From Nitrospiraceae bacterium (GTDB taxonomy: Bacteria > Nitrospirota > Nitrospiria > Nitrospirales > Nitrospiraceae): a DNA stretch of 64,000 nt. Position 1 is the stretch's first letter; every line of letters begins with the position of its first letter. Below, one piece after another: positions 7,627 to 48,083 of the stretch. The notes under the pieces are model-generated. The model was not told the origin of the DNA. It saw only the letters and a program-made list of their open reading frames with translations, and did not search any database. The translations under genes were made by a program, and so were the position numbers. Location: the NCBI GenBank assembly GCA_919902505.1, contig CAKKRE010000003.1, forward strand, positions 1-64,000, given 5' to 3'.

Positions 7627-7652
7627 ATCTTCCTCCTCTACTTCACCGACAA

Positions 7653-8273: not shown

Positions 8274-8340
8274 AAACCCTCAACAAAGGATAAAGGTCAC
8301 TGCCCACCCGTGGCGGGCCAGAGAAAGATCATCTTCCCGT

Positions 8341-19181: not shown

Positions 19182-20408
19182 TCAACCTGGCAGACCGGCA
19201 TTTCTTCTGGCGCGCGCCTCCAGCCCGTAGGCCAGGATGATCGCAAGACACGCCCCCAACAGACCGGCCACGGCCGTATTGAAGACCACCCGCGGCTTGA
19301 TCTGCTTGTCGGCGGGGACAGGCGGGTCCAGAACCTGAACCGTGGGCGTATCACGAGCTTCGGTAATTTTCGCCTGCTCATATTGCGAGGTGAGCAACGC
19401 ATAGAGCGTCTCCTGCACCTTCAACTCACGGAACAATCGCCCGTATTGCAGGGCCAGATCCGGCACCGCCACCATGGCCGGATGGAGGCGGTCTCCCGGC
19501 GAGGCACCCTTTGCGCCTTTCCCGAACTCCAGCAAGGCCAGCTGCTTCTTCAACTCCTCGATACTGGAACGGACCCGTGAGAGATCGGGATTGTCCGGGG
19601 ACAGGTAGGCACTCATCACCTGAAGTTGCACCTCGTAGCCGGTGATCTGACCCTGTATCATGGCCGCAGCCTCGATCATGGCCTTGGACTGCGCCTCGAC
19701 GGCCACTGCTTTATTATTTCGCTGAAAGTCCCGCAACGCCTCTTCGGTTTTCACCAGTCCCGTTTGCGTCTCCGTAAGGCGCCGCTCGATGAACGCGCGG
19801 TTATAGCTGGCCTTGCTGACATTCAACGTGCGGTTCAGGCGATCCAAACTACTCACAAAGTAGGCTGCGATATCGGCAGCCCGCTGAGGATCCGCATCTT
19901 CCACGGTCACCTTGATGACTTTTTCCTTCGACACAGTCACCCGAACTCGCTCTGCCAGTTCGACGCGGGTATCGTGCATCGTCCGCTCGTGGTACACCGC
20001 CATCAGGCCGAACTTGGCAATCGCCTCGTCAGCCATCACTCGCGACTTGAGGATTGCCACAAATACGTCAGTAGGCGTCGTCGGCATGCTGGGCAGCCCC
20101 ACCCCGAGATTCTGCGCCATACCGCCGGCACCGGTGGTCGCCAACAGCGCCGCCAGACTCCCGCCTTCTTTCGAATCCAGCTGCGGCAGCAGGGTCGCGG
20201 TCGATTCATACGCTTTGGGAAGGAGGAGGGCACTGACGGCGAAGGCGCTCAGCAGCGAGGCCACTATAATCGTCGCCACCAGCCCCCGGCGCCGAGAGAC
20301 CACCGACAAGAGGTCCTGCGGCACCATCCCGTCGCGGCTCGGCAGATTCGCCCCGTGACCGCGCGAAGGAGTCATGACCACCTGAGGAGTATCCAACAAC
20401 CGACTCAT
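19182..20408 (-). CDS. Wzz/chain-length determinant family protein
   Basis: This is a polysaccharide co-polymerase that sets chain length during Wzy-dependent polymerisation. Topology is typical: one helix at about 43-63, a long periplasmic, mostly helical domain, and a second helix at about 372-396. The Wzz signature is visible at the start of the periplasmic part (YESTATLLPQ). PADKQIKPR sits just before the second helix, giving the expected Pro-rich segment. There is no C-terminal P-loop tyrosine kinase, and no separate BY-kinase gene is in this locus. It is the last gene of the export block, after the SLBB protein. Confidence 0.88.
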   Translation of the reverse strand: MSRLLDTPQVVMTPSRGHGANLPSRDGMVPQDLLSVVSRRRGLVATIIVASLLSAFAVSALLLPKAYESTATLLPQLDSKEGGSLAALLATTGAGGMAQNLGVGLPSMPTTPTDVFVAILKSRVMADEAIAKFGLMAVYHERTMHDTRVELAERVRVTVSKEKVIKVTVEDADPQRAADIAAYFVSSLDRLNRTLNVSKASYNRAFIERRLTETQTGLVKTEEALRDFQRNNKAVAVEAQSKAMIEAAAMIQGQITGYEVQLQVMSAYLSPDNPDLSRVRSSIEELKKQLALLEFGKGAKGASPGDRLHPAMVAVPDLALQYGRLFRELKVQETLYALLTSQYEQAKITEARDTPTVQVLDPPVPADKQIKPRVVFNTAVAGLLGACLAIILAYGLEARARRNAGLPG

Positions 20409-20426
20409 GATGTGCTCACATCCCGA

Positions 20427-23060
20427 TTATCGACCGACAACGGCGATACCGGCGGCCGTGAGGGCCACGCTGCCGATAATGCTGGCCACGGTTTGCCACA
20501 AGGCCAGCTGCGGTGTCCGGGCCTCGATCTTTTGAGGCACCACGATCGTATCTCCGGAGCGCAATTCCTTCACAACCAGGTAGGCGGAATCGGTGGTTCC
20601 GTTGGCCCGCATGACATACATCTCTTTTTTATTGGCATCTTCGCTCAGTCCGCCGGCTTGACGCAGGTAGTCCTCCAATCCCAGGCTCGGTCGATAGACC
20701 ACTGTACTGGGATTCTTCACCGACCCGATGATACTGACCGTTTGCGACGGCGTGGGCATCAGAATCCGATCCCGCGCTTCCAGGATGATATCGTCTTCAG
20801 TCCCTTCGAGTTGCTCGATGGAGTCCATCCGAATCACCACACGCCCCAATTCCAGGCGGGAGGTGATGGCCTCCAATTGCTGGAGACGCAATGACAACAC
20901 CTGTTGCTCAGCCAATCCTCCGCCTGTGGATAACACCGCGGCCGTGCTCAGTCCGGAGGCGCCTGCTGCTCCTCCCGCCGCCTGCGCCGTCAACCGTTGA
21001 CGTTCTGACGCCACAAATCGCTCAAGTTCGGCCTGTTGCCGGAGCTTGACGGATTCCCGGGACAATACCAGCCCGGCAGGAAACGCGTTCTGCGTGACCC
21101 CGCCGGCACGCTTCAAGACCGAGCTTAATCGCTCACCCATTTCGATCGTGAAATAGCCCGGTCTCTTCACCTCCCCCTCAACCAGCACCAGATTGGGCGG
21201 GCGATGTTGACTGGCAACAACCACCTGGTCCAACCGCTGGAGCACGTGATTGTCAGCCTCGCTTCCTTCGAGCAGCGCCCGGGGGCTGAATTGAATGACC
21301 TTGGTTTGATAGGTAACCGGGTCGGTCCTCACGATTTCGGCACGATCGGCATAGGCATCCATCGTGAGCTGATCGTGGATCAACAGGTCCTTCACCTTCA
21401 TGCCGGGGCGATATTCATAAGGTCCCGGGCTTTTCACGGCCCCGACAAGACTCACCACATTGGTAATTTGCGTCGGGAGAATGCCGATGCGCACATAATC
21501 TCCGTCGAGCAGGACCGGATCGCCCCCTGCCACGCCGGGCCGACTTTTTTCATGCCCCTGGGACGCCAGCGCGCCGACCAGATCCACATCCACCATAATC
21601 CGGCCACGTTCAGGATCAAGCCGGAACAGATGGCACCGCTGTCGGTCGGACAGCGGCGTGAGGCCTCCGGCAAGAGTCAGGAGTTCCGTCAATCGCACCC
21701 CCGGCTTCACTTCGTAGATCGCCGGGCGCTTGATCGATCCGCTGACCGCCACCACCGGACCGAGCGGCGGAACCAGCACGACGTCTCCCGACTGCAAGCG
21801 CTGATCGAAACGCCGGTCTCCCCGCAGCAGAAAATCATACAGGTCCAGTTCCGCGACGGTCTTCCCCTCGCGCATCACCTTGACCTGGCGCAACGACCCC
21901 GAACGGGCTGGGCCGCAGGCGGCATACAGCGCATTCGACGTGGTGGCCAACGCACTGATTTCGTAGGCGCCCGGGCGGACAACTTCGCCGACGACATACA
22001 CTTTGATCGTCCGGATCCGTGCCATCGACACGTGCAATTCGAATCGCTTCAGGAGATTGCTCAGTCTAGACCGCACGGTCTGCTCGACCTGCGAAAATGT
22101 CTGGCCGCCGACAGGAATCGCTCCCACCTGCGGGATCACGATCATCCCGTCACGTTCGACCGGCACGATGAAGCTTCGATTGAAGCTGGGGTCGGGGACA
22201 TTCCAAATGTGTACGGCAAGCGAGTCTTGCGGCCCGACGATGAAATCCGGCCCGACCGGGATATCCTGGATCGGCGAGAAGGTATTGGCCTGCGCTTCAA
22301 AAAAGTCGTAACCGAACTGTCGCACGCGGCTCTTCACGCCGTGCAACACAGAAAACTCGGCAAAGGCTTCTTCCACATTGAAATCCTGCTGACGAAGCAA
22401 TTCAGCCGTGAAGGCTTTCTTTTCAGGCACCGGACGCACCCCGCCCGGTTGGCCTCCCGGCTGATTCCCCGGCTGGCCCTGAGCTTGAGCGGCAGGCTGT
22501 TGAAGACTGGATACGGCGCCCTGCCCGAACGGCAACTGCGAGACGCCTTTTTTTTCACGCTCGGCCTGCACCTGAAACTCGATACTCGATTTTTCCTTCT
22601 CGGCCTGCAGCTTTTCCTGCCGGCGATCACGCTCTTCCTGTTCCTGCTTCATCCGCTGCTCGATGGAACTCGGCAACAGGCTGCTCGGTTCGACCGGCCA
22701 GTAGTCATTCAAATTGGGAACTGTTCCCTTCGAGGTGAGATCGGAGGAGAGAGGAATCGGACAGGGCGTCTGAGTCGGCACGATCGGCTGCAGCGCGGTG
22801 GGATTGGTGACGATAGCCTGGCCGAAACCGCCCCCGGCCCCTGGAGCGCTGAAGCCGCCGGGCGTGAACAGGCTACCGGGAGTACCAGGCGCCGCCTGCT
22901 GCATCATTCCCGGTGGCGCGACCTGCGGCGGAAGATTTTGGGCCAGCAGCGACGGCGGCAGAATAAAGGACAGCACTACCATCCAGATCAAGGCGTGGGA
23001 GAGGGCAACCTGGCGCGCAGGGGGATGGGGACGGTGATGGGGGATCATACTGACGACCAT
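20427..23060 (-). CDS. Polysaccharide export protein with PES and multiple SLBB domains (Wza-like)
   Basis: The 877-residue protein has a signal peptide and a Gly/Pro/Gln-rich N-terminal region with a charged helix (about 135-175). A polysaccharide export (PES) domain follows at about 265-350, beginning IVGPQDSLAVHIW. After it come several SLBB beta-grasp repeats, recognised by VVGEVVRPGAYE, VSGSIKRPAIYEV, LVGAVKSPGPYEY, VEGEVKRPGYF and IIGSVKNPSTVVY. A C-terminal hydrophobic segment ends the protein. It is larger than classical Wza (about 380 residues) because of the extra SLBB copies. Such proteins form the export channel for polysaccharide through periplasm and outer membrane. AGGAGGG before the ATG supports the start. 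Confidence 0.9.
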   Translation of the reverse strand: MVVSMIPHHRPHPPARQVALSHALIWMVVLSFILPPSLLAQNLPPQVAPPGMMQQAAPGTPGSLFTPGGFSAPGAGGGFGQAIVTNPTALQPIVPTQTPCPIPLSSDLTSKGTVPNLNDYWPVEPSSLLPSSIEQRMKQEQEERDRRQEKLQAEKEKSSIEFQVQAEREKKGVSQLPFGQGAVSSLQQPAAQAQGQPGNQPGGQPGGVRPVPEKKAFTAELLRQQDFNVEEAFAEFSVLHGVKSRVRQFGYDFFEAQANTFSPIQDIPVGPDFIVGPQDSLAVHIWNVPDPSFNRSFIVPVERDGMIVIPQVGAIPVGGQTFSQVEQTVRSRLSNLLKRFELHVSMARIRTIKVYVVGEVVRPGAYEISALATTSNALYAACGPARSGSLRQVKVMREGKTVAELDLYDFLLRGDRRFDQRLQSGDVVLVPPLGPVVAVSGSIKRPAIYEVKPGVRLTELLTLAGGLTPLSDRQRCHLFRLDPERGRIMVDVDLVGALASQGHEKSRPGVAGGDPVLLDGDYVRIGILPTQITNVVSLVGAVKSPGPYEYRPGMKVKDLLIHDQLTMDAYADRAEIVRTDPVTYQTKVIQFSPRALLEGSEADNHVLQRLDQVVVASQHRPPNLVLVEGEVKRPGYFTIEMGERLSSVLKRAGGVTQNAFPAGLVLSRESVKLRQQAELERFVASERQRLTAQAAGGAAGASGLSTAAVLSTGGGLAEQQVLSLRLQQLEAITSRLELGRVVIRMDSIEQLEGTEDDIILEARDRILMPTPSQTVSIIGSVKNPSTVVYRPSLGLEDYLRQAGGLSEDANKKEMYVMRANGTTDSAYLVVKELRSGDTIVVPQKIEARTPQLALWQTVASIIGSVALTAAGIAVVGR

Positions 23061-23172: not shown

Positions 23173-24804
23173 CTAAAACTGCATGGCTAGAGAAGTCCAG
23201 AACAAATGGTTCTGAGCTTCGACACCGGCGGCGAACGTTTCGACAAACGGCGCGATCTGAGAGACCTGCCCGGGATTTTTGAGACGCTGAAACGTATAGC
23301 CTATCGTGAACTGAGTCCGGCTCGACCACCACCAGGTGAGATCCACGGCCGCCTCCCGTTTCTTCTCATGGACCGGTTGCCCGCGGTCCCGCTCCTGCAG
23401 GTTAAAGTTCGCGCCCAATTGCAGGGTATCGGTCAGATATCGCGTTGTGCGTACAAAAAAGTCGGTCCCGTCGGTTCCCATATGGTGGCCCAGCGGAAAC
23501 CCGCGGTACCGCATCCCGCTGGTATAGGGCGAGTTGTTGTACCAGACCTGGCGTAGCTCGGGATGACGGCGCCGGCCGTAATCGGTGTCGGCATATTCGA
23601 TACGCACATCCAGCGTATCGCCCTCGAACACCTGCGGGATATAGATCCCGGCCAGAAAGGCGGTGCGGCTCGGAACGGGGAGTTGCGACCATTTGTCCTC
23701 CGTTCCAGCCTCGCCGTAGAGCTGAAGCCCGGCCGGAAAGGGAATCAGATAGGGAATCGACGGAATCCGGAGCCGGAAATCGGCCATCGCCTGCTCGTTC
23801 ACATCCCGATTGCCGGTTTGATTAGGCTCCGAGACATAGGCATCGAACACCACTCCGGGGAATGACTGGTCACGCCCGCGGCCGCCGAACTGCGTCAGAC
23901 GAGTGAGCCCGAACTCCAGCCAGGAAGCCGGCAGGTAACTGAGCCGCACCCCGAACAGTTTCGCGCGCGGAAAATCCCGATTCTCCTCGAAACGACCCAG
24001 AAACGCATTGACCTTCCAGTCCCCGAGCCCGCTGAGAAATCCCGGCAATTGAAACGGCCGTTCCGTTCCGAGCTTGATCATTTCCATCGGGAACGCGTGA
24101 TCGGTCAGCAGCAACGACCCGTGATAGCCGGGCCCCCACCATTGCGTGCCCCGCCCGACCTCCAGCGCGATGTTCGCGTAACTCAATTTGAGACTGAATT
24201 CGCGCATGTAGAAATTATCGGCATTATTGGTGGCGCCGATGCCCAGCAGATGGCGATTGCTGATGAACTTCGGTTGCACCATCAGCGCGGCCCAGTCGCT
24301 CAACTCCGCCCATGCGCGCACATCGGTTTGATTCTGCACGCCGTTCACCGAGTATTCCCCGCCACGGTTCTCGCGGAACCGGACGGTCTGGCCGCCGCCG
24401 ATGGACGACCCATCGATCTCCGATGTGACACGGGCGCCGAACCGCAGGGTGCCGGTTTTGTCTTCGGGGCGCGCACGGACCGTTCCCAGACGAATGAGCT
24501 CCGGACGGAACTCCGCGAGCAATCGTTCCAGAAGCGGCTCGGCAATCGCCTCACGGCCGTCCGGCTCGACCGCATCCGCGCGGACCCGCTCGATGGCGCG
24601 AGTCACATACTGAGCCGCCTGCATCCGGCTGAACGGCTTGGCGCCGATCAAAGCGCGGTCGATCACACCCAGCGCAATCAAGCGCTCAATGGCGTCATAA
24701 CTCCAGTGGTGCAGCGGCACATTGCTGGAGGCCAGGGCAATCCCGTTCAGCAAGAGCCACAGGGCCAGGCCGAGACTGAGCGCGAATGAAAGGCGACGGA
24801 TTTT
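23173..24804 (-). CDS. Capsule assembly Wzi-like outer-membrane beta-barrel protein
   Basis: A signal peptide ends near IALASS. The next part (PLHHWSYDAIERLIALGVID) resembles an S-layer-homology-like segment that Wzi-related proteins often carry. The rest is a beta-barrel with many aromatic, alternating strands and ends in Phe (MQF), as outer-membrane proteins do. The GRGTQWWGPGYHGSLLLT segment is characteristic of the Wzi family, which binds capsule or exopolysaccharide at the cell surface. The GTG at 24804 is chosen because it opens directly onto the signal peptide. Longer frames overlap the upstream dehydratase gene. Confidence 0.82.
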   Translation of the reverse strand, partial: KIRRLSFALSLGLALWLLLNGIALASSNVPLHHWSYDAIERLIALGVIDRALIGAKPFSRMQAAQYVTRAIERVRADAVEPDGREAIAEPLLERLLAEFRPELIRLGTVRARPEDKTGTLRFGARVTSEIDGSSIGGGQTVRFRENRGGEYSVNGVQNQTDVRAWAELSDWAALMVQPKFISNRHLLGIGATNNADNFYMREFSLKLSYANIALEVGRGTQWWGPGYHGSLLLTDHAFPMEMIKLGTERPFQLPGFLSGLGDWKVNAFLGRFEENRDFPRAKLFGVRLSYLPASWLEFGLTRLTQFGGRGRDQSFPGVVFDAYVSEPNQTGNRDVNEQAMADFRLRIPSIPYLIPFPAGLQLYGEAGTEDKWSQLPVPSRTAFLAGIYIPQVFEGDTLDVRIEYADTDYGRRRHPELRQVWYNNSPYTSGMRYRGFPLGHHMGTDGTDFFVRTTRYLTDTLQLGANFNLQERDRGQPVHEKKREAAVDLTWWWSSRTQFTIGYTFQRLKNPGQVSQIAPFVETFAAGVEAQNHLFWTSLAMQF

Positions 24805-24892
24805 CACAAGGCAGGCCGGACAGGAGCAGAAAGAGAGCGTTTGAGAATGAGCCGTGTGGCCGGAATCTCCGACAGAGAACGGTGACGACGCA

Positions 24893-26863
24893 TCACTTTT
24901 GCCTGTGCGGAGCGATCGGCGCAAGACCGGCGACCGTTTCTATGCCGGCGGGAGACTGCGCGGGGTCTTCGGCCAGGAGACCATCGGTCTCGCCTCCCCG
25001 CTCCCGGATCAACGATGTGCCGACCGGGCAGTAGGTGGGAAGGATGGCGCAGAGGAGGGCCAGCACCTTCGACACATTACCCTCCGCAGCAGACTCCTCC
25101 AGTCTGGCCACAAGCCCGGACAACTGAGCGAAATTGCGCGCAGGGTCCGGCCGGATACAGAGGACTTTCTGAACCGCAGTCGACTCCACCGTTTCGTGAC
25201 CGGCGACCAGTTCCTCCGTCAGTTTCTCGCCCGGCCTGCAACCGAGATAGGTCAAGGCAATGTCTTTGTCGGGGACCAGTCCGGACAAACGAATCAGATT
25301 GCGCGCCATCTCCACCACGCTGATCTGCTCGCCCATCTCCAACACGAAGAGTTCCCCTCCCCTGGCCAACCGTGCGGCCTGGAGCACCAGATGCACGGCC
25401 TCGGTCATCAGCATGAAATAGCGCTTCATGTTGGGGTCCGTAATTGTCACCGGCCCGCCCGCTTTGATCTGCGCCAGAAAGAGCGGGACCACGCTGCCAT
25501 TGCTGCCCAATACATTCCCGAATCGCACGGTGGCAAACACCGTCCGGGACGTTCGGGCCAACCGCTGCATAAGCAGTTCCGCAACTCCCTTGCTCGCCCC
25601 CATCACGCTGACCGGATTCACCGCCTTGTCCGTCGAGATCAGGATGAACCGGTCGACTTCATGCCGATGGGCGGCTTCTGCGACCACCCTGGTCCCGCCA
25701 ACATTGTTCAAGACGGCTTCGCAGGGATTTCCCTCCATCAGCGGCACATGCTTATGCGCGGCGGCATGAAACACCAGCGTCGGGCGATACTCGGCAAACA
25801 ACCGGTTCATCTGACCGACCTCGGTGACGTCGCCGATCACCGGAGCCACGAACGTCTTACCGGCCGCCACTAATTCGTTCACAACGGCAAAAAGCCCGTT
25901 CTCATAACGGTCCAGCAACACTAACGATGCCGGAGCCAGCCCGGCGACCTGCCGGCATAATTCCGCGCCGATCGACCCTCCGGCTCCGGTCACCAACACC
26001 CGCTCCCCCTGCACCAACGCACGCAGCGGTTCAGGATCCAGATCGACCGGAACCCGGTCAAGCAAGTCTTCGATGGACAGATTGCGGATCTGGCTGACCT
26101 CGACCCGGCACTGCAACAGATCCCGCAAGTTCGGCAGGGTTTGAATGGGGAGATGGAACGGTTCCAGCGCCTTCACCACCGCCCGAATCGTGGCGGGCGC
26201 GGCGCTCGGCATGGCCACAAGCACCACGTCGGGAGCCTGTCGGGCGATGATGTGAGACAGGCAATCCCGGTCTCCCAGGACTCTCACCCCATGAATGCGG
26301 TGCCCGACTTTCGCCGGATTGTCGTCAACGAACCCGATCGGACGATAGCCGTAGGAAGGATTGTTGCGCATTTCCCGCACGATCATCGCTCCGGCATCCC
26401 CGGCGCCGATAATCAGCACCCGCTTTCGGTCGGCCCCAAGCCAACGCGCTTCCCGAATCAGCCGGGGAAGCACCCGCAACCCGGCCAGCAGGCACCACAG
26501 CAGTAAGGCGTCGATGACAAAAATGGAGGATGGATAGGCTCGCGTGCCCAGCCCGAATCGCACCAACCCGGCAAAGGCCAACGAGCTGACGGCGATACTC
26601 AGCGCAAGATTACGGAGGTCCCAAAGACCGGTGTACCGCCAGATGCCGTCATAGAGCCGGAAGGGGTAGAAGGTGAGCGCCCGGATCGTTAATAGCAAAG
26701 GGAGCATCGCGGCAAACAGATCCCATTCCTGCGCAGGAATGTTTCCATCGAAGCGAAGCAGAAACGCCACCCAGTTCGAAAGCGCAGCCAGTCCTAAGTG
26801 ACCCGTAAACAGCAGCAGGCGCCGCTGAACCACGGAAAAGACTGTGGGGAACAGGATCGGCAT
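24893..26863 (-). CDS. Membrane-bound nucleotide-sugar 4,6-dehydratase (CapD/PglF/WbpM family)
   Basis: Four N-terminal membrane helices and a CoA-binding-like Rossmann domain (VLIIGAGDAGAMIVREM) precede the catalytic SDR domain. That domain has GAGGSIG for NAD binding, STDKAVNP, and SVMGASKG. In the last, Met stands where most SDRs have the catalytic Tyr, which is the rule in PglF/WbpM-type UDP-GlcNAc 4,6-dehydratases. The 656-residue length fits. The product, a UDP-4-keto-6-deoxy sugar, is a usual substrate for the aminotransferase encoded upstream. Confidence 0.92.
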   Translation of the reverse strand: MPILFPTVFSVVQRRLLLFTGHLGLAALSNWVAFLLRFDGNIPAQEWDLFAAMLPLLLTIRALTFYPFRLYDGIWRYTGLWDLRNLALSIAVSSLAFAGLVRFGLGTRAYPSSIFVIDALLLWCLLAGLRVLPRLIREARWLGADRKRVLIIGAGDAGAMIVREMRNNPSYGYRPIGFVDDNPAKVGHRIHGVRVLGDRDCLSHIIARQAPDVVLVAMPSAAPATIRAVVKALEPFHLPIQTLPNLRDLLQCRVEVSQIRNLSIEDLLDRVPVDLDPEPLRALVQGERVLVTGAGGSIGAELCRQVAGLAPASLVLLDRYENGLFAVVNELVAAGKTFVAPVIGDVTEVGQMNRLFAEYRPTLVFHAAAHKHVPLMEGNPCEAVLNNVGGTRVVAEAAHRHEVDRFILISTDKAVNPVSVMGASKGVAELLMQRLARTSRTVFATVRFGNVLGSNGSVVPLFLAQIKAGGPVTITDPNMKRYFMLMTEAVHLVLQAARLARGGELFVLEMGEQISVVEMARNLIRLSGLVPDKDIALTYLGCRPGEKLTEELVAGHETVESTAVQKVLCIRPDPARNFAQLSGLVARLEESAAEGNVSKVLALLCAILPTYCPVGTSLIRERGGETDGLLAEDPAQSPAGIETVAGLAPIAPHRQK

Positions 26864-27030: not shown

Positions 27031-27807
27031 CTAGGCTGGTCGAGCGACCATGAATAGGACCTTGTAGCCGTCAACCGGACGATCGGAGGGAACGGGTTGA
27101 GGTGCGGTATATGCGGCCATCCCCTCCTGCACAGTGCTCGGGAAGGGAACGAGATGACCCAGAAACAGGCGTTTGAGCAGTTGCTTCCCGTCCATCGTGG
27201 ATGGGATCAGGTGCCATTTGACCGCGACGCGCTTGAGCCAGGACAGGCAGAGAGCCCTAGCCGACGCCTTCGCAGTCGAGAATGCACCGAAACTCTCGGA
27301 CTGAAACCCGGCCTCCTGAAGCAGGACGGACAATTGGTGCGCCGAGTAATACCGGCGACTGTGGGGGCTGGGATTAAAATCCAGCCACTCCGGGTTTACG
27401 GTGCAGAGAAGGAGGACCCCCTGAGGGGTCAACACCCGACGGCACTCCTGCAAGAAGGAGGGGAAGCGTTCGATGTAATACATCGCTTCATAACACACGA
27501 CCACATCTCGGGTTGCGGTGCCCAGCGGCAACGCGTCGGCAGACAAACGCAACAAGGGTAGCGTACGGGGCGAGAGGCGCCGGGCACTGTCGATCAACTC
27601 CGCCGTGACATCTCCGCCGATCGCGTGCCCAGCCTGTTGAGCAAGATATCTTAGGCCAATACCTTCCCCACAGGCCACCTCCAACAGCCGTTTCCCCCGA
27701 CTGAATTCCGACGCAAAGCGATAGCGCGCATAGAGCATGGACAACGCCTCTTGCGTCACCCGGTCCCCGGCTTTTTCGGTCACAGCGCTGTAGTCGAGCA
27801 CACTCAC
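27031..27807 (-). CDS. Class I SAM-dependent methyltransferase
   Basis: A 258-residue enzyme of the Methyltransf_11 type. Motif I is LLEVACGEGIGLRYL, the acidic end of strand 2 is in IGGDVTAE, and motif IV-like VVVCYEAMYYIE follows. The GTG start at 27807 overlaps the stop codon of the aminotransferase gene (GTGA), which fixes the start; the open frame upstream of it is a shadow of that gene. In this polysaccharide locus the likely target is a sugar hydroxyl or amino group, but the specificity cannot be read from the sequence. It is the last gene of the run starting at 39659. Confidence 0.85.
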   Translation of the reverse strand: MSVLDYSAVTEKAGDRVTQEALSMLYARYRFASEFSRGKRLLEVACGEGIGLRYLAQQAGHAIGGDVTAELIDSARRLSPRTLPLLRLSADALPLGTATRDVVVCYEAMYYIERFPSFLQECRRVLTPQGVLLLCTVNPEWLDFNPSPHSRRYYSAHQLSVLLQEAGFQSESFGAFSTAKASARALCLSWLKRVAVKWHLIPSTMDGKQLLKRLFLGHLVPFPSTVQEGMAAYTAPQPVPSDRPVDGYKVLFMVARPA

Positions 27808-28916
27808 GGCTGCGTTGAGAAGAACGATTGGAGGCAGGCAACAGTCGTGGCAACATGGTCGTCCGTGGTCTCTGCGCTCATCGGCAGAGACAAAACCTCC
27901 CGGCAGAGTGCCGTGGTTTTCGGTACAGCCGGAGTAGCGAGCCCTAATCCTGAGTGCTCCCACATTGGTTTCGGCCAATGGACCAGGGTTTCGACGCCCT
28001 GCTCCTTCAGGTAGGCCCGCAGCCGGTCGCGGACATCCGTACGTACCACGTAATTCTGATAGATGTCGTGGTGGCGAGTCTGATCGAAATGAGGCAGGCG
28101 TAATTGTCTGATCCCGGAAAGTCCCTGGCGATACAAATCCGCCATGCGCCGGCGGTGAATGATCCATTCAGGCAGATGGCGCAATTTCACATCCAACACG
28201 GCGGCCTGCACGTTGTCCAGGAGGGCGGTCTGCCCATGGTAGTGGTACTCGCCCGTTTCACGATCCTCGCCGTTATACCGCAAGAGCGTGGCCATGCGCG
28301 CAAGGCCGGGATCGTTCGTCGTGATCGCCCCGCCATCGCCGAATCCCCCGAGCACCTTGAAGGGATAGAAACTAAAACAGCCTGCACGCCCCTGACTCCC
28401 GGCGCGTTTGCCGTCATAGGTTGCTCCGAGGGCCTGGGCTGCATCCTCAATCACAGCCAGTCCGCGCTTGTCGGCGATCGCCAGAATCCTGTCCATCTCG
28501 CACACCCGGCCATTGAGATGAACCGGCAACAGGGCTTTGGTTTTCGGCGTGATCGCGCGTTCGATCAGACCCGCATCCATGTTGTGATCAGCCCCCACGT
28601 CGATCAGCACCGGATGCGCCCCGCAATGAACAATGGCGGACACGGTCGCCACAAACGTATGGGCCACGGTGATCACCTCATGGCCCGGCCCGACGCCCGC
28701 GCCAAGAAGGGCGAAGAACAACGCATGGTAGCCGCTGTTGACGCCAACGGCATATTTCACGCCCACGAATTCGGCCAGGTGCCGCTCGAAATCCTTGAGC
28801 TGGTGCCGGTTGACCAGATCGCCGTTCGCCAGGCACCCCGTGATCGCGGCGTCGATCTCCGGCTTGAGTTTCGCATAGTGACTGCGCGGATCGATGAAGG
28901 GAACCTGATACGCCAT
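27804..28916 (-). CDS. DegT/DnrJ/EryC1/StrS-family sugar aminotransferase
   Basis: A PLP enzyme that usually transaminates a nucleotide-bound keto-sugar. The fold-type I signature is clear: GVNSGYHALFFAL near the N-terminus, IEDAAQALGA with the PLP-binding Asp, and the Schiff-base Lys in SFYPFKVLGGFGDGGA. Also typical are QTALLDNVQAAVL and a late NYVVR. The start at 28916 gives the normal family beginning VPFIDP. Together with the 4,6-dehydratase it could make a 4- or 3-amino-deoxy sugar. The gene is coupled by overlap to the methyltransferase and lies 17 bp after the E1beta-like gene. Confidence 0.92.
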   Translation of the reverse strand: MAYQVPFIDPRSHYAKLKPEIDAAITGCLANGDLVNRHQLKDFERHLAEFVGVKYAVGVNSGYHALFFALLGAGVGPGHEVITVAHTFVATVSAIVHCGAHPVLIDVGADHNMDAGLIERAITPKTKALLPVHLNGRVCEMDRILAIADKRGLAVIEDAAQALGATYDGKRAGSQGRAGCFSFYPFKVLGGFGDGGAITTNDPGLARMATLLRYNGEDRETGEYHYHGQTALLDNVQAAVLDVKLRHLPEWIIHRRRMADLYRQGLSGIRQLRLPHFDQTRHHDIYQNYVVRTDVRDRLRAYLKEQGVETLVHWPKPMWEHSGLGLATPAVPKTTALCREVLSLPMSAETTDDHVATTVACLQSFFSTQP

Positions 28917-28933: not shown

Positions 28934-29908
28934 CTACAGGAGGACTTTCTCTACACTCGCGACGATATCCTTGGCGCCAACATAATAGGCTTGCTCGAGC
29001 ACGGCAGAGGTGGGGGCGGGCACATCCGGCAAGCAGACACGGACAATCGGAGCCTTCAACGCATGGAAGATGTCGCCGGCGACCGCAGCGGCGATGTCGG
29101 CCGCGATCCCGCCGCTCATCCATGCCGCGTCGGCGATGACCAACCGACCGGTTTTCCCCACGGAAGAATACACCAGATCACGATCCCAGGGTTTAATCGT
29201 CCGCAAATCGATCAACTCCACGTCGATGCCCCGTTGTGCCAGCGTCTCCGCGGCCTTGACCGCTTCAGCCGCCATATACGACGTCGCGACGACGGTTACC
29301 TTTTTGCCGCTGCGGCGGATCACCCCCGACCCGATCGGCACCTCATAGAGACCTTCCGGCACGTCCCCCTCTGAGTCATACAACCAGCGATCGTCGAGGT
29401 AGAGCACCGGATTCCCGTCTCGGACGGCCGCAACCAGCAACCCCTTCGCGTCATAGGGGGTAGCAGGCATGACGACTTTCAATCCAGGAACATGCGCGAA
29501 CAGCGCCTGCAACGCTTGTGAATGCTGTGCGCCCTGCTCGCCCCCTCGGTTGATGACCGAGCGTATGACGACCGGCACACTCACCTGCCCGCCGAACAGA
29601 TACGACCAGTTGGCCGCCTGATTCACGATCGGGTCGACCGCCAACAGCATGAAATCCATCCGGGCATGAAACACAATCGGACGCATACCGACAATCGCCG
29701 CCCCGATCGCCGCGCCGGTCGTCGCGTTTTCGGAAACGGGACAGTCGAACACCCGTTCGCGTCCGAACTCCTTGTCCAAGTCGAGCAGACTCTTGCCCGC
29801 ATACCAGGGGTTCCAGACTCCCTGTCCGCAGACAAATACCCGCGGATCATGCCGCAAGAGTTCGGCATGGGCTTCTCGTATCGCCTGCGCATAGGTGAAC
29901 TGCCGCAT
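28934..29908 (-). CDS. Thiamine-diphosphate enzyme beta subunit (2-oxo acid dehydrogenase E1beta / transketolase C-half type)
   Basis: The protein has the order of pyrimidine-binding domain (FTYAQAIREAH, then PVSENATTGAAIGAA with the activating Glu) and transketolase C-terminal domain (VTVVATSYMAAEAVKAAE, DLRTIKPWD). The GGEQGAQHSQ segment is the E1beta hallmark. At 324 residues it is normal. It follows the E1alpha gene by 7 bp. No lipoyl acyltransferase (E2) or dihydrolipoyl dehydrogenase (E3) gene is in the window. A role in building a branched or acylated sugar, rather than in central metabolism, is therefore suggested by location; this is inference. Confidence 0.88.
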   Translation of the reverse strand: MRQFTYAQAIREAHAELLRHDPRVFVCGQGVWNPWYAGKSLLDLDKEFGRERVFDCPVSENATTGAAIGAAIVGMRPIVFHARMDFMLLAVDPIVNQAANWSYLFGGQVSVPVVIRSVINRGGEQGAQHSQALQALFAHVPGLKVVMPATPYDAKGLLVAAVRDGNPVLYLDDRWLYDSEGDVPEGLYEVPIGSGVIRRSGKKVTVVATSYMAAEAVKAAETLAQRGIDVELIDLRTIKPWDRDLVYSSVGKTGRLVIADAAWMSGGIAADIAAAVAGDIFHALKAPIVRVCLPDVPAPTSAVLEQAYYVGAKDIVASVEKVLL

Positions 29909-29915
29909 AGGGTAC

Positions 29916-30911
29916 CTAGGTTCTCCGTGGCGCATAGACATGCCTGAACAGATCGCTGTCGTCGGGCAGAGGTGATTCACGGGCAAATGTCACGGCCGCC
30001 TCGATTTCGCCCCGGACGGCGGGCTCCAGTGCATCCAGGTCTTCTACCGACAGGCCCTCTTCAATCAAACGCCGTCTTAACCGCAGGATAGGATCCTTGG
30101 GCATCCATTCATCCAACTCGCTGCGGCGGCGCTCCCCGACTTCAAGATCCCAGGCCGGACCGACATGACCGCGCCACCGGTATGTCCGGCACTCCAGCAG
30201 ACAAGGCCCTGCACCGGCCCTCGCCTGCGCCACGGCCTGCGTCGCGCCATCGCGCACCGCCAACGCATCATTCCCATCCAGACGTATACCAGGCATGCCC
30301 GCGGCATCGGCGGCCTGGACGATGTTGTCCTTCAGACGACGAGCCGACAGCGGCATATGCGTGGAATAAAAGTTATTCTCACACACAAATAGCACGGGAA
30401 GGCGATAGAGCGCAGCCAGATTCAGGGACTCGTGAAAATGCCCCTCCTCCGTGGCACCGTCGCCGAAAAAGGCCACGGCCACGTGCGGCTCGTGACGAAG
30501 CTTGGACGCCAGCCCGGCGCCCACCGCCAGAGGAATGGTCGCCCCGACCAGCGGGACCGTCCCGTACAACCCCTGCGCGGGAGCGACGAGATGCATGGAT
30601 CCCCCTCGCCCCTTCGAGCAGCCGGTCACTCGGCCGAACACTTCCGCCATCATCTCCGGCAAGTCTCCACCCTTCGCCAGATAGTGGCCATGCGAGCGAT
30701 GCCCCCCCCACACCGTATCCTGCCGGCTCAATGCCGCGCAGACACCGGCGGCGATCGCCTCCTGCCCGATGGACAGGTGACACGGAGTCTTGATCTCTCC
30801 CGCGGAGACTAATTCCCCAATCCGTTCCTCAACGAGACGAATCAGCAGCATTATCCGCAACAGGGATCGACCGGCCGCTGCGGCGCCACCGACCTGCATG
30901 ATTGCATCCAC
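29916..30911 (-). CDS. Thiamine-diphosphate enzyme alpha subunit (2-oxo acid dehydrogenase E1alpha type)
   Basis: The ThDP-binding motif begins GDGATEEGHFHESLNLAAL and closes with CENN. RGHVGPAW lies in the phosphorylation-loop region, where mitochondrial enzymes have their regulatory Ser. GGHRSHGHYLAKGGD and KGRGGSMH are also characteristic of E1alpha. It forms the usual alpha2beta2 pair with the next gene. GTG 30911 is chosen because AGAAGGGG lies 7 nt before it; ATG 30899 is possible. The pair lies between the initiating sugar transferase and the sugar aminotransferase. It should act on a metabolite of the polysaccharide pathway, for example by transferring a two-carbon unit to a keto-sugar. 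Confidence 0.88.
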   Translation of the reverse strand: MDAIMQVGGAAAAGRSLLRIMLLIRLVEERIGELVSAGEIKTPCHLSIGQEAIAAGVCAALSRQDTVWGGHRSHGHYLAKGGDLPEMMAEVFGRVTGCSKGRGGSMHLVAPAQGLYGTVPLVGATIPLAVGAGLASKLRHEPHVAVAFFGDGATEEGHFHESLNLAALYRLPVLFVCENNFYSTHMPLSARRLKDNIVQAADAAGMPGIRLDGNDALAVRDGATQAVAQARAGAGPCLLECRTYRWRGHVGPAWDLEVGERRRSELDEWMPKDPILRLRRRLIEEGLSVEDLDALEPAVRGEIEAAVTFARESPLPDDSDLFRHVYAPRRT

Positions 30912-31576: not shown

Positions 31577-32719
31577 TCAGTGCTCGACCGCAGATGCACC
31601 TCCGGCGCCTGCGAGTCCCAGCTTTCTCCAGAACCGGGGCAGGCTGATCAACCGCACGAGCCCCCACAGAGACCCCAGCCCATACCCCAGATGCAGCGCC
31701 GCAAAGACGACCGGCATCAGGATAAGGGTGGAGAAGGACTTGTTTGTCCAAGCCACATGAACAGAAGCCGCCACATTCACCATGCCATACGCCGCAAAGA
31801 TCGCGCCACTCACCCAGAACCACGGTTGCACGACGAGACCCGCTGTTGCCGTCACCAGCAGTGTCGTTACAAAGAGCAACGGAATGAGATGACGAAGGGA
31901 GACCGGCATACCGTCACTATAGGCAAAGGGCAACATGGCCCACAAGCCATTGTTCCAGTTCTGTCGCCAGAACGCGGACAGGGTGGAACGGGCAAAATAT
32001 TCACTCGCCACGTCAGGCACCAGCAACATACGCCCGCCCGTTTTCCGCAAACGGAGACTGAAATCCATGTCCTGCCCTCGGATCAGGTCCACGTTAAATG
32101 GACCTTGGCGATCGATCGATGCGGGCGCGAGAGGCACAACTCCGTTCGCCCGGGAACCCTCCGGTGCCGGAACACGCGCGAAAACCTCTCTTCGATAACA
32201 GCCGCAAAACACCGTATCGACCCACGTCGCAGCGGACACGTGAATGCGGAAATATGAGTTCCCCACTCCGAACGGATGGCTCAACGCGGCAGCAATCGCC
32301 TGACCGACCGGAGAATCCACCGCGGGAACGGTCCGCATCAGACCGCAGGCCACATCGGCATCATGCTCGTACAGCGCCTCGACGCACCGCCGGATGTAGC
32401 CCCGCTCCAGGCGCGCATGCGCATCCACCCGGAGCACCACGTCCCCTTGTGCCTCGCGTACACCGAGATTGAGGGCCTTTGGCGTGGTCCTGCCGGGGTT
32501 ATCGATCACCCGGACACAGGCATGGCGTTGCGCATACGCCTCCAGCACGGCACGAGTTCCATCCTCACTCCTGCCGTCGACGACCAGTACGCCGAAGCGA
32601 TCGTCAGGATATCCGTTGCTCAAGATCGACGTCAGACAGCGCTCGATAAAGTCCGCCTCATTCCGGCATGGAACGAGAACCGTCACAAACGGCACTCTGT
32701 ATCCCGGCTCCATCTCCAT
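31577..32719 (-). CDS. Glycosyltransferase family 2, membrane-associated
   Basis: The catalytic GT-A domain begins VTVLVPCRNEADFIERCLTS, has the nucleotide-sugar-binding Asp in VVDGRSEDGT, a DXD-like VDAHAR, and the base region GQDMDFSLRLRK. Three or four hydrophobic helices at the end attach it to the membrane. At 380 residues it resembles succinoglycan-type enzymes (ExoA-like). The sugar and linkage cannot be predicted. Its start is 1 nt upstream of the polymerase stop, so translation is coupled to that gene. Confidence 0.9.
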   Translation of the reverse strand: MEMEPGYRVPFVTVLVPCRNEADFIERCLTSILSNGYPDDRFGVLVVDGRSEDGTRAVLEAYAQRHACVRVIDNPGRTTPKALNLGVREAQGDVVLRVDAHARLERGYIRRCVEALYEHDADVACGLMRTVPAVDSPVGQAIAAALSHPFGVGNSYFRIHVSAATWVDTVFCGCYRREVFARVPAPEGSRANGVVPLAPASIDRQGPFNVDLIRGQDMDFSLRLRKTGGRMLLVPDVASEYFARSTLSAFWRQNWNNGLWAMLPFAYSDGMPVSLRHLIPLLFVTTLLVTATAGLVVQPWFWVSGAIFAAYGMVNVAASVHVAWTNKSFSTLILMPVVFAALHLGYGLGSLWGLVRLISLPRFWRKLGLAGAGGASAVEH

Positions 32720-34159: not shown

Positions 34160-35998
34160 CTAAGCAGATGACATCAGGTTTCGTGCGCGGAGGCCTTCCT
34201 GACTCGACGATGCACGGCATGGCTTCATGCCCCGGCGCTTCGTGACCAGGCACCGGTCGATCACCAGATAGTCGAGGCCGGAGCGCAGGAGCACCTCCAC
34301 CGCATCGCAGGCTCCGCCGACGATGGGGGATCCATGAAGGTTAAACGAGGTATTGAGCACCACCCATCGACCCGTCACCCGTCCGAATGCCTCGATGAGC
34401 GCGTGGAAGGACGGATTCAGATCCTTCCACACCATCTGCACCCGCGCCGTCTGATCCGCCGAATGTACGGCCGCGATGAAGTCTGCGCGGCGCCCGGTGG
34501 TCTCGAAGGCGTGCATCATGTATGGACTGACACGCGGCCTCGGCAGTACCGACGGAACATGGACATACCGTTCAGCCTGCTCTCCCAGCACCGCCGGCGC
34601 AAAGGGCATCCAAAAGTCCCGCTGCTTGATCATATGGTTGATGACGTTCACCACGGCCGGATTGCCGGGATCCGCAAGGATGGAGCGATTCCCGAGCGCT
34701 CTCGCGCCGAACTCCATCCGTCCGGAACAGCGAGCCACAATGTGGCCCTGAGCCAGCAGTTCGGCCGTGCGCGCTTCCGGATCATCCAGTTCCTGAAACT
34801 CCACGGCCTCACCGTACCTAGCTCGCGCTTCCGCCAGGTCCGCACCGGCCTCCGGCCCCACATAGATGTCATCGAAGTGAATATCGTCCAGTGCTCCACC
34901 CTGGCGTACATGACATTGCCATACGGCGCCGAACGGCAGCGTTTCGTCGCCACAGGAGGGAAACACATCAAAATACTCGAGCGCGGACAGTTCGGCGACC
35001 CGGTGATTGGCCTTCACATTCATAAACACTCCGCCCGCCGCCAGCACCTTGCGCACCCCGGTCCGTTCCATGGCTGCAGCCACCCATCGGCACATCAGAT
35101 CCTCGGTAAAGAGTTGCACCCCCGCGGCCACCAGGTCGAAACGCACGGTTCGAAGATCATCCATCAGCCTGGGGAGAATGGCGTTCGTCCGTTCGGATGT
35201 CTTTCGACGGAAACACAAAGGATTCTCGGGATCGAGGTCCAAGTAACGGGCAAACGAGTTCGCCACCTCACGCCCCTGCTCCACACCGGCATACGGAGCC
35301 AGGCCCATCACCTTGTACTCGTGCTCATGAGGGCGCATGCCGAGCAAGTATGTCACCGACGCATAGATGTTCCCCAGGGAATGGCCAATGGGTGTTGAGG
35401 CCAGCAAGCGTAACTGTCCCTGCTGAGCCAGGTACACCTGCGCGCAGCTGTCATCGCCGCCGCCGTCCAAGGTCAACACCAGATGCGGCTCCTCCCAGTT
35501 CTTGCAGAGCGCGTAATAGGCCGACGCGGCATGGTTCGAATGGTGATGAAACCGGCTGACCGGAATGCCATCGAGGCCACACTGTGCCAACTGTCGCTCA
35601 ATCACAGGATGACTCATTGCCGTCCGCCGCGAGACTTGCCACCCCCGTCCCAGTTCTTCGATCGAAGCCGGTACAAGGCCCGCGCATCTGGAAGCGGCGC
35701 CGGACCAGTCACCCGCGAGAACGAGGTCTTTCCAGGAGCGTGAGTTCCGGGCGTAACACCGGAGCAGGTCTTCACGAGTTTCCTTCACAGGGCTGTTGAG
35801 ATTGCTGAGACACACATGATCGAGGCGTCGCGCATCCAAGCCATACGCTTTCACGCAAGCCATGACCGCCTGGAGGGGAAACCCGATCGCCCCCTTCTCT
35901 CGAGTCACCCGTTCTTCCTGGACCCCAAAGACCACTCGTCCGTCCTGGCACAACACAACGGAGGCGTCGATGCCTTCATTGATACCCAGAATCAGCAT
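34160..35998 (-). CDS. Carbamoyltransferase (NodU/CmcH family), copy 1
   Basis: This family makes carbamoyl-adenylate from carbamoyl phosphate and ATP in its C-terminal YrdC-like domain and transfers it to a hydroxyl in the N-terminal Kae1-like domain. The N-terminus LILGINEGIDASVVL, metal-binding His residues in FHHHSNHAASA (H151-H156), DGGGDD, and GGVFMNVKANH are present. So are the C-terminal SGRMEFGARALGNRSILADP and LNTSFNLHGSPIV. The 612-residue length is normal. In this locus the acceptor should be a sugar of the surface polysaccharide. The start overlaps the stop of the GT4 gene by a few bases. Confidence 0.93.
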   Translation of the reverse strand: MLILGINEGIDASVVLCQDGRVVFGVQEERVTREKGAIGFPLQAVMACVKAYGLDARRLDHVCLSNLNSPVKETREDLLRCYARNSRSWKDLVLAGDWSGAASRCAGLVPASIEELGRGWQVSRRTAMSHPVIERQLAQCGLDGIPVSRFHHHSNHAASAYYALCKNWEEPHLVLTLDGGGDDSCAQVYLAQQGQLRLLASTPIGHSLGNIYASVTYLLGMRPHEHEYKVMGLAPYAGVEQGREVANSFARYLDLDPENPLCFRRKTSERTNAILPRLMDDLRTVRFDLVAAGVQLFTEDLMCRWVAAAMERTGVRKVLAAGGVFMNVKANHRVAELSALEYFDVFPSCGDETLPFGAVWQCHVRQGGALDDIHFDDIYVGPEAGADLAEARARYGEAVEFQELDDPEARTAELLAQGHIVARCSGRMEFGARALGNRSILADPGNPAVVNVINHMIKQRDFWMPFAPAVLGEQAERYVHVPSVLPRPRVSPYMMHAFETTGRRADFIAAVHSADQTARVQMVWKDLNPSFHALIEAFGRVTGRWVVLNTSFNLHGSPIVGGACDAVEVLLRSGLDYLVIDRCLVTKRRGMKPCRASSSQEGLRARNLMSSA

Positions 35999-37062
35999 GC
36001 CACCCTCTTCGGCCCCAGCACCTCACGATAGAGATCGACCGTTTTCCTGACAATGTGATCCTGCGCAACGAGGGCGGTCCACGCTCGACCGTTGGAGCGC
36101 ACGGGACGGGCAAGCATGTCGGCCAATCCCTTTCCCAGGGCCTGCGGCTTCCGTTCGACGATTCTGGACGGGACTACTCCGGCCAGGCGTTCCCGGACAT
36201 CTCCGACATCGACCGACACAACCGGCAGATTACAGGCCAACGCCTCCTGGACGATCGTCGGAGACCCCTCCCAATCGCTGGTGAGAAGCAGGCAATCGAC
36301 GCCGTTCAACATGGTTGCGACTGTCGAATGCGGCACACGCCCATCTAATGTCACGAACCGGATCGGGCCACATTCCTTCACTGCCTCGTTCACCGCCGCC
36401 TGCGCAAGATCCAACCGTTTCACCGCCGGTGAAAGCCCCGCATTGAACAGCACGACGCGATCCTGCTCCGGCCACCCGAGTTCCTGTCGAGCGTCAGACC
36501 GGGATCGGGGAACAAAGAGATTCGTGTCCACCCCGGACGGCAGGACAACCGCGCGGTCTCCAGCCCACCATAACCGGCGCGCCAGCCCTTCGCTGACACA
36601 GATGATCCGGGCCGCCTTGCGAGCGGCATACTGAGACAACCAGCGGCGCAGCGCGGACCGGATCCACGGATCGCTCGGAGCGGGATTGAGATCGCTCCCG
36701 CGAAAGGTGATTACCAAAGGCACCGTCGCGATCAGGCTCGCGAAAAACGCCGTCATGGTCCCATACTGCGCATGCACGAGATCCGGGCGAAAGGAATCCA
36801 TCAGGCCACGCAGCCTTGCGGACTCCCGGCGCAAACTGCGCAAATCCGTCCTGGACGCCAGACAGAACGTCTCCGCAACCACACCCACCTCCCGCATCGC
36901 CTCGACTTGTTTCTTCGCAAAAATCATCGCCGAACCCTCGGCTTCGCCCGGAAACAGGTAGAGCACGCGAATGGGGCGGCCTTGCAGGGGTGCCGGGTCC
37001 CTCTGCCGATCCTCGTACGACACGGCCATTCCGACCATATCTGACATGCACCCTCGAATCAC
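35992..37062 (-). CDS. Glycosyltransferase family 4 (GT-B fold)
   Basis: The N-terminal domain begins RVLYLFPGEAEGSA. The C-terminal Rossmann domain has the donor-site elements VVLFNAGLSPAVKRLDLAQAA and EGSPTIVQEALACNLPVVSVDVGD, with the conserved Glu of the EX7E motif. LPSGVDTNLF marks the start of the second domain, as in most GT4 enzymes. It uses an activated sugar and acts at the cytoplasmic face. The start is uncertain: GTG 37062 overlaps the upstream stop as GTGA, and ATG 37047 or 37038 are alternatives. Confidence 0.9.
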   Translation of the reverse strand: MIRGCMSDMVGMAVSYEDRQRDPAPLQGRPIRVLYLFPGEAEGSAMIFAKKQVEAMREVGVVAETFCLASRTDLRSLRRESARLRGLMDSFRPDLVHAQYGTMTAFFASLIATVPLVITFRGSDLNPAPSDPWIRSALRRWLSQYAARKAARIICVSEGLARRLWWAGDRAVVLPSGVDTNLFVPRSRSDARQELGWPEQDRVVLFNAGLSPAVKRLDLAQAAVNEAVKECGPIRFVTLDGRVPHSTVATMLNGVDCLLLTSDWEGSPTIVQEALACNLPVVSVDVGDVRERLAGVVPSRIVERKPQALGKGLADMLARPVRSNGRAWTALVAQDHIVRKTVDLYREVLGPKRVAC

Positions 37063-38294: not shown

Positions 38295-39659
38295 TTAGCG
38301 AGGGCGATTTGACGGCTCGCCGGACACACAGCGCCCGACCGGCCCGGAGGAGCATTCACGAAGCCGCGGCAACATTCGACGGTAGAAGGCCGTGGCCAGC
38401 AGCAGGCCGGCCAACGCATACTGGAGGCTGATCGCCACGGCGATGCCCAGCAGCCCGCCCGCCAAAAAGCCGAAGGCCTTCAAGGCGAGGCCCCCGAGAC
38501 TGGCCACGGCCTCGACCCTGGCGGGAATGCCTGTTTCGCCTTCGGCATAAAACGCATTGACCAGCAGATGATTCACTCCCCCGCACAACAGCCCTCCGGC
38601 GCAGGCGAAGAATGTCATCCGGAGAGTCGCCATCTCCTGACTTGTAATTCCTCCCTGGCCCGGCTGTCCCCCGGACCATAATCCGATACTCTGCCCGAAA
38701 ATTGCCACTGTCGACAGACCGACGAAGGCGAGCGCGCTGAGTCCTGCCACTCCAACCAGCCTTGCTCGACACACCGCCACAAATTCCTCCCAAGCGCGAG
38801 CCTGCGCCAGTTTCGCCAGGGTCGGCACGACCGGCGTGACAAATCCCTGATTGAAGATACGAACGACCGCAGCCAGTACCCGCCAGGTCAGCTCAAGCAT
38901 CACCAGGCTGCCTGCACCCAAGAAGGAAGTCAGAAAACGATCCGCGACGAATCCGGTCCGGACAAAGGCCGCGCTCAACACAAGCGGTCGCATACGCACA
39001 CCCACCTCGCGTAGGCACGTGACCGCACCCGGAAACGAACCAGGCACCCATGCTCCTAGTGCCTTCAACAACAGGAGCGCCGGCCCGCTGAGCACAAAGA
39101 CCTGGACCCAGGCCGCAAGCCTCACCCCACCACTCGACAGCGCCATGACTAGGACCCACCATCCAAGCAGCGAACAGAGGAGGAGCGCGCCGGCCGTCCA
39201 GATGAACCGGTCCCTGGCCTGGTAGAACGCGGACAACAGCGTGAAACAGGCCACCCCGATGAGCGCGGTCAGTTGGATTCGTGTCAGCTCGACGGTGAGT
39301 TGCCTGGTCGCATCCGAAAATCCAGGAACCATCACACCCACCAGGGACGGCGCCGCGGAGTACAACACCAGCGTCACAAGGGCGGCCAGCGCCCCGACTC
39401 CTAGGAACAACGGCCAGGCCAGCCGCCGTCGCTCAACTCCCGTGAGAGCGGACAGCAGCGGCACGAGCACAAACGACAGCGGGTCCATCACCACAACCGA
39501 CAACAGCTGGAGCAATGTCGTCCCCGCGTATAACGCGTCGGTATCGGGTCCGGCCCCCAAGTGGGCGACGGTATACCACTGGATGCCGAACGAGGACAGG
39601 AGCTGTGCGGCGGTCAGGAGGGACAGCCCCATTCCCAGCCCCAAAACGTTACGCCCCAT
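38295..39659 (-). CDS. MurJ/Wzx-type lipid-linked oligosaccharide flippase
   Basis: About 12-14 membrane helices over 454 residues, with the MVF/MATE-like pattern: ALYAGTTLLQLLSVVVMDPLSFVLVPLLS near the N-terminus, a Gln and Arg in SAFYQARDRF, and LLVNAFYAEGETGIP in the later half. These match MurJ-related exporters used in many exopolysaccharide loci instead of classical Wzx. It probably flips the undecaprenyl-linked repeat unit across the inner membrane before polymerisation. It is the first gene of a minus-strand run of eleven genes and is divergent from the outer-membrane gene at 39819. Confidence 0.82.
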   Translation of the reverse strand: MGRNVLGLGMGLSLLTAAQLLSSFGIQWYTVAHLGAGPDTDALYAGTTLLQLLSVVVMDPLSFVLVPLLSALTGVERRRLAWPLFLGVGALAALVTLVLYSAAPSLVGVMVPGFSDATRQLTVELTRIQLTALIGVACFTLLSAFYQARDRFIWTAGALLLCSLLGWWVLVMALSSGGVRLAAWVQVFVLSGPALLLLKALGAWVPGSFPGAVTCLREVGVRMRPLVLSAAFVRTGFVADRFLTSFLGAGSLVMLELTWRVLAAVVRIFNQGFVTPVVPTLAKLAQARAWEEFVAVCRARLVGVAGLSALAFVGLSTVAIFGQSIGLWSGGQPGQGGITSQEMATLRMTFFACAGGLLCGGVNHLLVNAFYAEGETGIPARVEAVASLGGLALKAFGFLAGGLLGIAVAISLQYALAGLLLATAFYRRMLPRLRECSSGPVGRCVSGEPSNRPR

Positions 39660-48039: not shown

Positions 48040-48083
48040 CAGCTTCTCAGCGTATGTCCTGTTTCGGTGCGCCCCGACGTCAA

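Follow-up and report, generated by a model that had tools for sequence, protein, structure and literature searches.

Introduction

C2-branched sugars are formed by ThDP-dependent enzymes of different architecture. One of them, YerE, belongs to the decarboxylase superfamily (PMC12247030) and is a ThDP flavoprotein made of a single chain (PMC4753412), while the alphaKADH2 enzymes, which resemble the E1 component of 2-oxo acid dehydrogenases and consist of two subunits, form the C2-branched sugars of aldgamycin and kibdelomycin (PMC12247030). Feeding and knockout work identified pyruvate as the donor in the aldgamycin pathway, and KbDH-alpha/beta from the kibdelomycin pathway transfers a pyruvate-derived acetyl group onto ketones in vitro (PMC12247030). 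The ketone of the new branch has been found to meet either of two fates, transamination in kibdelomycin or, in paulomycin, reduction by the aldo-keto reductase Pau7 (PMC12247030, PMC4753412); amycolose carries an alpha-aminoethyl branch (PMC10055692). AviB1/AviB2 of avilamycin and Pau11/Pau12 of paulomycin are proposed members of the same family (PMC4425429). According to a 2025 review, alphaKADH2 enzymes occur mainly in the pathways of antimicrobial natural products and YerE-like enzymes in those of cell-surface structures, and the branched sugars of surface glycans have so far been tied to enzymes of the YerE type (PMC12247030).

Here we analyze an E1alpha/E1beta pair from a Nitrospira, encoded within a polysaccharide locus of the Wzi/Wza type. 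A first-pass annotation of this DNA held that known branched-sugar enzymes are single-chain proteins and that the pair would therefore be a different solution; this claim fails, because two-subunit alphaKADH2 enzymes have already been described (PMC12247030, PMC4425429, PMC4753412). The kind of enzyme is already known, and what is new is a widely distributed and conserved cassette of an E1 pair and a DegT aminotransferase in surface-glycan loci, which we did not find described in the open-access literature. We likewise found nothing specific in that literature on E1 proteins in O-antigen or Nitrospira exopolysaccharide loci, or on 1-aminoethyl sugars in polysaccharides.

Results

The window, by which we mean the whole 64,000-nucleotide stretch that was analyzed, carries the pair on its minus strand, within a tight operon that runs in the order PF02397 transferase, E1alpha, E1beta, DegT, methyltransferase. 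The E1alpha-like ThDP subunit (29916..30911, starting at GTG 30911 or ATG 30899) matches PF00676 with 227 bits, and the E1beta-like subunit (28934..29908, start ATG 29908) matches PF02779 and PF02780 with 106 and 128 bits. Both frames are open, the pair is intact, and 7 bp separate the E1alpha stop from the E1beta start. After a gap of 17 bp, E1beta is followed by a DegT/DnrJ/EryC1 PLP aminotransferase of a cassette-specific clade (27804..28916, start ATG 28916), whose stop is overlapped by the GTG start of a SAM-dependent methyltransferase (27031..27807, cluster MT6); the latter, of about 258 residues and starting near 27807, had been masked by an open reading frame at 27031-28167. Directly upstream of E1alpha lies a short, PglC-like initiating sugar-phosphate transferase of family PF02397 (30916..31545). 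Profile matches thus bore out the earlier description of a complete alpha-beta pair between an initiating sugar transferase and an aminotransferase, at coordinates that were correct apart from the choice of start codon. Membership of the YerE family is ruled out by the two chains and by their PF00676 and PF02779/PF02780 domains, and the sole match to a decarboxylase-superfamily profile in the pair is a weak one to PF02775 on E1alpha (27.6 bits).

The surrounding genes, also on the minus strand, belong to the same polysaccharide locus. Downstream of the operon core are a CapD/WbpM-like membrane nucleotide-sugar 4,6-dehydratase (PF02719, 24893..26863), a candidate source of a 4-keto acceptor, a Wzi-family outer-membrane assembly protein (23173..24924), and Wza-like and Wzz-like export and chain-length proteins (19182..23060), which were assigned from their translations and whose gene clusters (12 and 13) are also conserved in related Nitrospira loci. 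Upstream of the core are a GT2 glycosyltransferase (31577..32719), a NodU/CmcH-like carbamoyltransferase (34160..35998), a GT4 glycosyltransferase (35992..37062) and a MurJ/Wzx-like flippase (38295..39659). Further along, a 756-residue open reading frame on the plus strand (39819-42089) has halves that resemble a tandem duplication of one outer-membrane-like domain, and DXS and IspG of the MEP pathway adjoin each other on the minus strand (46834-50030). DXS (48084-50030) is a second kind of ThDP enzyme in the window and has no bearing on the E1 pair.

E2 domains in the whole host genome were found on contigs 16 and 21 only and none in the window, and the window's contig gave no lipoyl-domain match, in agreement with the earlier observation that the pair is unaccompanied by E2/E3. 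The host genome encodes three further E1 pairs, 38-46% identical to the window pair and each beside its own E2. Since all three genomic E2s have an E1 of their own, no spare E2 awaits the window pair, and an orphan E2 elsewhere in the genome is ruled out. A search of 84,980 species genomes returned 166 relatives, from which 80 loci were kept, giving 81 with the window; at none of these 81 was an E2 found within 10 kb of the pair. No E2 was detectable in 8 of 47 genomes with a cassette-type E1 pair; most of these eight are drafts, in which a single absence is weak evidence and a repeated absence is not, and in the three Patescibacteria among them the cassette E1 is the sole E1. On plasmids of Sphingobium and Rubrobacter (L124, L128), an E1 pair is followed by a freestanding lipoyl-domain protein, called from annotation in Rubrobacter, with no E2 catalytic domain nearby. 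A partner of this style is ruled out for the window pair, there being no lipoyl match on its contig.

A quick, unrooted tree of concatenated E1alpha and E1beta (94 rows, LG+C20, SH-aLRT supports, no bootstraps) grouped 63 cassette pairs as a single clade (SH-aLRT 99), which joins only other orphan E1 pairs (support 100), and set all 20 E2-linked pairs, acetoin-type included, on the opposite side; its rows did not include KbDH, any other proven alphaKADH2 sequence, or the proposed members AviB1/B2 and Pau11/12. Set against the E1 proteins of PDH, acetoin and branched-chain complexes, the window pair thus falls outside the E2-linked E1s. The first-pass annotation had named clustering with PDH or acetoin dehydrogenase E1, together with an E2 set lacking an E1, as the outcome that would refute its reading; we found a separate clade and an E1 for every E2. 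The sister set of orphan pairs comes from plasmids of Azospirillum and Solidesulfovibrio, where the pairs lie in glycan loci that mostly contain a DegT gene, and from a Streptomyces natural-product cluster without sugar genes. In the latter (L120, Streptomyces griseofuscus plasmid pSGRIFU1), the E2-free E1 pair is accompanied by acyl carrier and condensation-domain genes. Sister orphan pairs from Nitrospirota (L137-L147) lie in glycan loci with genes for radical SAM-SPASM proteins, a PfkB/cytidylyltransferase fusion, SIS proteins and GHMP kinases; an IlvB-type ThDP enzyme is also encoded nearby in L144, and a transketolase C-terminal subunit in L145.

The residues of the clade combine a retained catalytic apparatus with altered surroundings. 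BetaGlu59, betaHis128, alphaHis249 and alphaArg245 are invariant, as are several new E1beta residues (Gln28, Gly29, Trp34, Arg82, Asn119, Arg120, Gln124, Asp171 and Arg173), which fall in invariant or nearly invariant motifs: QG at 28-29, WYxG at 34-37, HPR at 80-82 (HAR in the window), NRGGEQ at 119-124, leading to the catalytic His128, and DDRW at 171-174. In E1alpha, the loop serine is replaced by valine (Val250) in all 63 members and the loop Asp is also lost. BetaGlu285 of the Bacillus E1 (1w85) is a putative E2-docking residue; the corresponding position is acidic in 17 of 20 E2-linked E1s and in none of the 63 cassette pairs, 54 of which have Lys or Arg, a charge change that is not exclusive to them, as the acetoin-type E1beta of L126 and L127 has Lys at this site despite its E2. 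We read the pair as a ThDP enzyme that is putatively active but has a changed site for its acceptor, in which the new Arg and Trp residues might bind a nucleotide sugar.

These observations bear on the possibility of a genuine 2-oxo acid dehydrogenase E1 that works with an E2/E3 encoded elsewhere and provides acyl-CoA, for instance to N-acylate an amino sugar. The pair does have the catalytic residues of PDH E1, and its best NCBIfam matches are PDH E1 models, though under their cut-offs. We nevertheless consider such a role very improbable, given the lack of a spare E2 in the genome, the E2-less genomes, the separate position of the clade, the loss of two conserved E1alpha loop residues, Ser and Asp, and the replacement of the acidic residue at the betaGlu285 site.

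The related loci carry about 20 phylum labels (21 different phylum names in record titles), among which single MAG assignments may be wrong. Cultured carriers of the cassette include Geomonas paludis and Peristeroidobacter agariperforans. The first set of relatives was biased toward exact peptides shared with the query, a bias partly offset by loci from a full-length protein search. The pair is present in 18 of 29 Nitrospira species genomes and is rare in Pseudomonadota, where it occurs in 3 of 349 sampled, the search centre included. Full flanks, meaning 4.5 kb or more on each side of the pair, were available at 44 loci, where neighbours include PF02397 transferases in 37, DegT in 32, methyltransferases in 31, CapD in 28 and aldo-keto reductases in 8; of 134 neighbouring genes for DegT, reductase or PF02397 transferase, 132 share the strand of E1beta. 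In five extra Nitrospirota and Pseudomonadota loci from the full-length search, placed inside the clade by identity, E1 has DegT and PF02397 genes next to it in every case. A strong PF02719 (CapD) match was present in 27 of 30 checked genomes and lacking in three. The pattern of distribution fits the horizontal spread of a functional module.

Some loci depart from the common arrangement. Three members of the E1 clade (L026, L044 and L064) lie outside recognizable glycan loci, beside a radical SAM gene, SufB and housekeeping genes, and because of these the function of the clade may not be uniform. In L070, genes for a formyltransferase and a PIG-L-type deacetylase (7209-8839) separate the PF02397 transferase gene from the E1 pair, which suggests further amine chemistry on the cassette sugar. 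A class I aminotransferase gene lies in or beside the E1-DegT cassette at seven loci (L019, L020, L027, L028, L034, L038 and L039).

The DegT aminotransferase is more than a neighbour and is co-inherited with the E1 pair: 55 of 56 E1-adjacent DegTs form one clade (support 99), apart from the other DegTs of the same loci, and one DegT coded as distal also falls inside it. By sequence, the closest solved structures are 7b0d, 2oga (DesV), WbpE and QdtB, not PglE or PseC; scores are 236-291 bits against WbpE, 2oga and 7b0d and about 92 bits against PglE/PseC. The bacillosamine pathway is thus ruled out as a whole explanation, and the likeness to DesV, WbpE and QdtB would suit an enzyme whose task is not the simple 4-amination of what CapD makes. 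DegT gives way to an aldo-keto reductase at a minority of the loci. At the 44 full-flank loci, at least one of the two is present in 39, both together in one and neither in five, and mutual exclusion gives a Fisher p of 1.5e-4, a value uncorrected for the tree and set beside an independent-pair test with 2-3 informative pairs, so that the exclusivity is suggestive only. The DesV, WbpE and QdtB enzymes that the cassette DegT resembles are 3-keto-sugar aminotransferases, as would be expected if it carried out an ordinary 3- or 4-amination on a different sugar and shared no more than a polysaccharide with an unrelated E1 branch. This account is unlikely in view of the single DegT clade that accompanies E1 across many phyla and of the tendency of the reductase to take the place of DegT.

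Discussion

We propose that the E1 pair is probably a stand-alone ThDP carboligase that attaches a two-carbon acyl group to a keto-sugar, and that the adjacent DegT, or elsewhere the reductase, converts the new ketone. The E1 pair would decarboxylate a 2-oxo acid, most likely pyruvate, and pass the remaining two carbons on, as an acyl group, to the keto carbon of a nucleotide sugar, the likeliest candidate being the 4-keto-6-deoxy compound made by the CapD-type dehydratase (24893-26863). The ketone of the acetyl branch would then be aminated by DegT or, at other loci, reduced by the aldo-keto reductase; further modification of the sugar by the methyltransferase may follow, and the PglC-like transferase may attach it to the lipid carrier. 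We infer the donor, the acceptor, the order of steps and the product from gene content and precedent. The DegT and reductase neighbours match the two known fates of a branch ketone, since that ketone is transaminated in kibdelomycin and reduced in paulomycin. The two-carbon transfer to a keto-sugar suggested by the first-pass annotation thus stands as the best reading, on the strength of the freedom from E2, the separate clade, the DegT/reductase context and the alphaKADH2 precedent.

CapD-type enzymes are common, and for that reason their presence does not prove the acceptor; their absence from some loci (CapD is present in 28 of 44) counts against the CapD product. A carboligase might instead act on an aldehyde, a sugar phosphate or a lipid-linked sugar, yielding an amino-alditol or a similar unit. 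Besides the incomplete occurrence of CapD, this alternative could draw on the kinase/cytidylyltransferase, SIS and GHMP-kinase genes of the sister E1 group, on the sister pair in a Streptomyces cluster devoid of sugar genes, and on the proposals for avilamycin and paulomycin, which place branch formation after glycosyl transfer (PMC4425429). The core cassette, however, has no nucleotidyltransferase, and the conserved PF02397 transferase and frequent CapD fit a UDP-sugar, so that we rate a non-nucleotide acceptor as rather improbable.

The donor could also be other than pyruvate, as the class I aminotransferase of seven loci hints: positioned between or beside E1 and DegT, that enzyme might make a special 2-oxo acid, or it might act on the product. 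A ketose or another 2-oxo acid would lead to the movement of a glycolyl or longer unit in a transketolase-like reaction, and the E1beta pocket residues are indeed unlike those of PDH. The known alphaKADH2 sugar enzymes, however, appear to be specialized for C2 branches (PMC12247030), and a PF00456 transketolase match is absent; we judge such a donor to have a small chance. A split transketolase is ruled out, the alpha subunit being a PF00676 protein with no match to PF00456.

The E1-DegT cassette occurs in polysaccharide loci of Nitrospira, Pelagibacter, SAR86, Prochlorococcus and Patescibacteria, and if the proposed two-carbon transfer is correct, unusual surface sugars would commonly be the work of two-subunit carboligases. 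The cassette offers a signature by which branched amino sugars could be predicted from genes. It also flags a set of 'pyruvate dehydrogenase E1' annotations that should be left out of the PDH count when metabolism is reconstructed, above all where a genome lacks E2. More tentatively, and with the odds somewhat against it, the E1alpha-beta/DegT set may make aminoethyl-branched amino sugars, a polysaccharide counterpart of the amycolose of kibdelomycin; in about 20 phyla, such a unit would be the first surface-glycan sugar to be loaded onto the lipid, and one unrecognized in polysaccharide structures.

The E1 proteins of PDH, acetoin and branched-chain complexes share their domains and catalytic Glu and His with the window pair, which differs from them in its lack of E2/E3, its separate clade, and its altered loop, pocket and putative docking-site residues. 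The PglF/PglE/PglD/PglC sets for bacillosamine likewise combine a CapD-type dehydratase, a DegT enzyme and a short PF02397 transferase; the window DegT, however, is far from PglE and PseC, and the E1 pair has no counterpart in those sets. YerE, which acts in the formation of yersiniose in lipopolysaccharide, offers a parallel in ThDP-dependent C2 sugar branching for a surface polysaccharide, but it does so as a single chain, whereas the window enzyme distributes PF00676 and PF02779/PF02780 domains over two. The closest likeness, one of subunit make-up and gene context and not of sequence comparison, is to the alphaKADH2 enzymes: both are two-subunit, PDH-E1-like proteins without E2, surrounded by sugar genes that include a nearby dehydratase to form the keto-sugar (here the CapD-type enzyme) and an aminotransferase or reductase for the branch ketone, and the family of the window cassette has both neighbour activities. 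Whereas the described alphaKADH2 enzymes belong to actinobacterial antibiotic clusters, the clade of the window pair resides in surface-polysaccharide loci, together with a co-inherited DegT and a PglC-like transferase.
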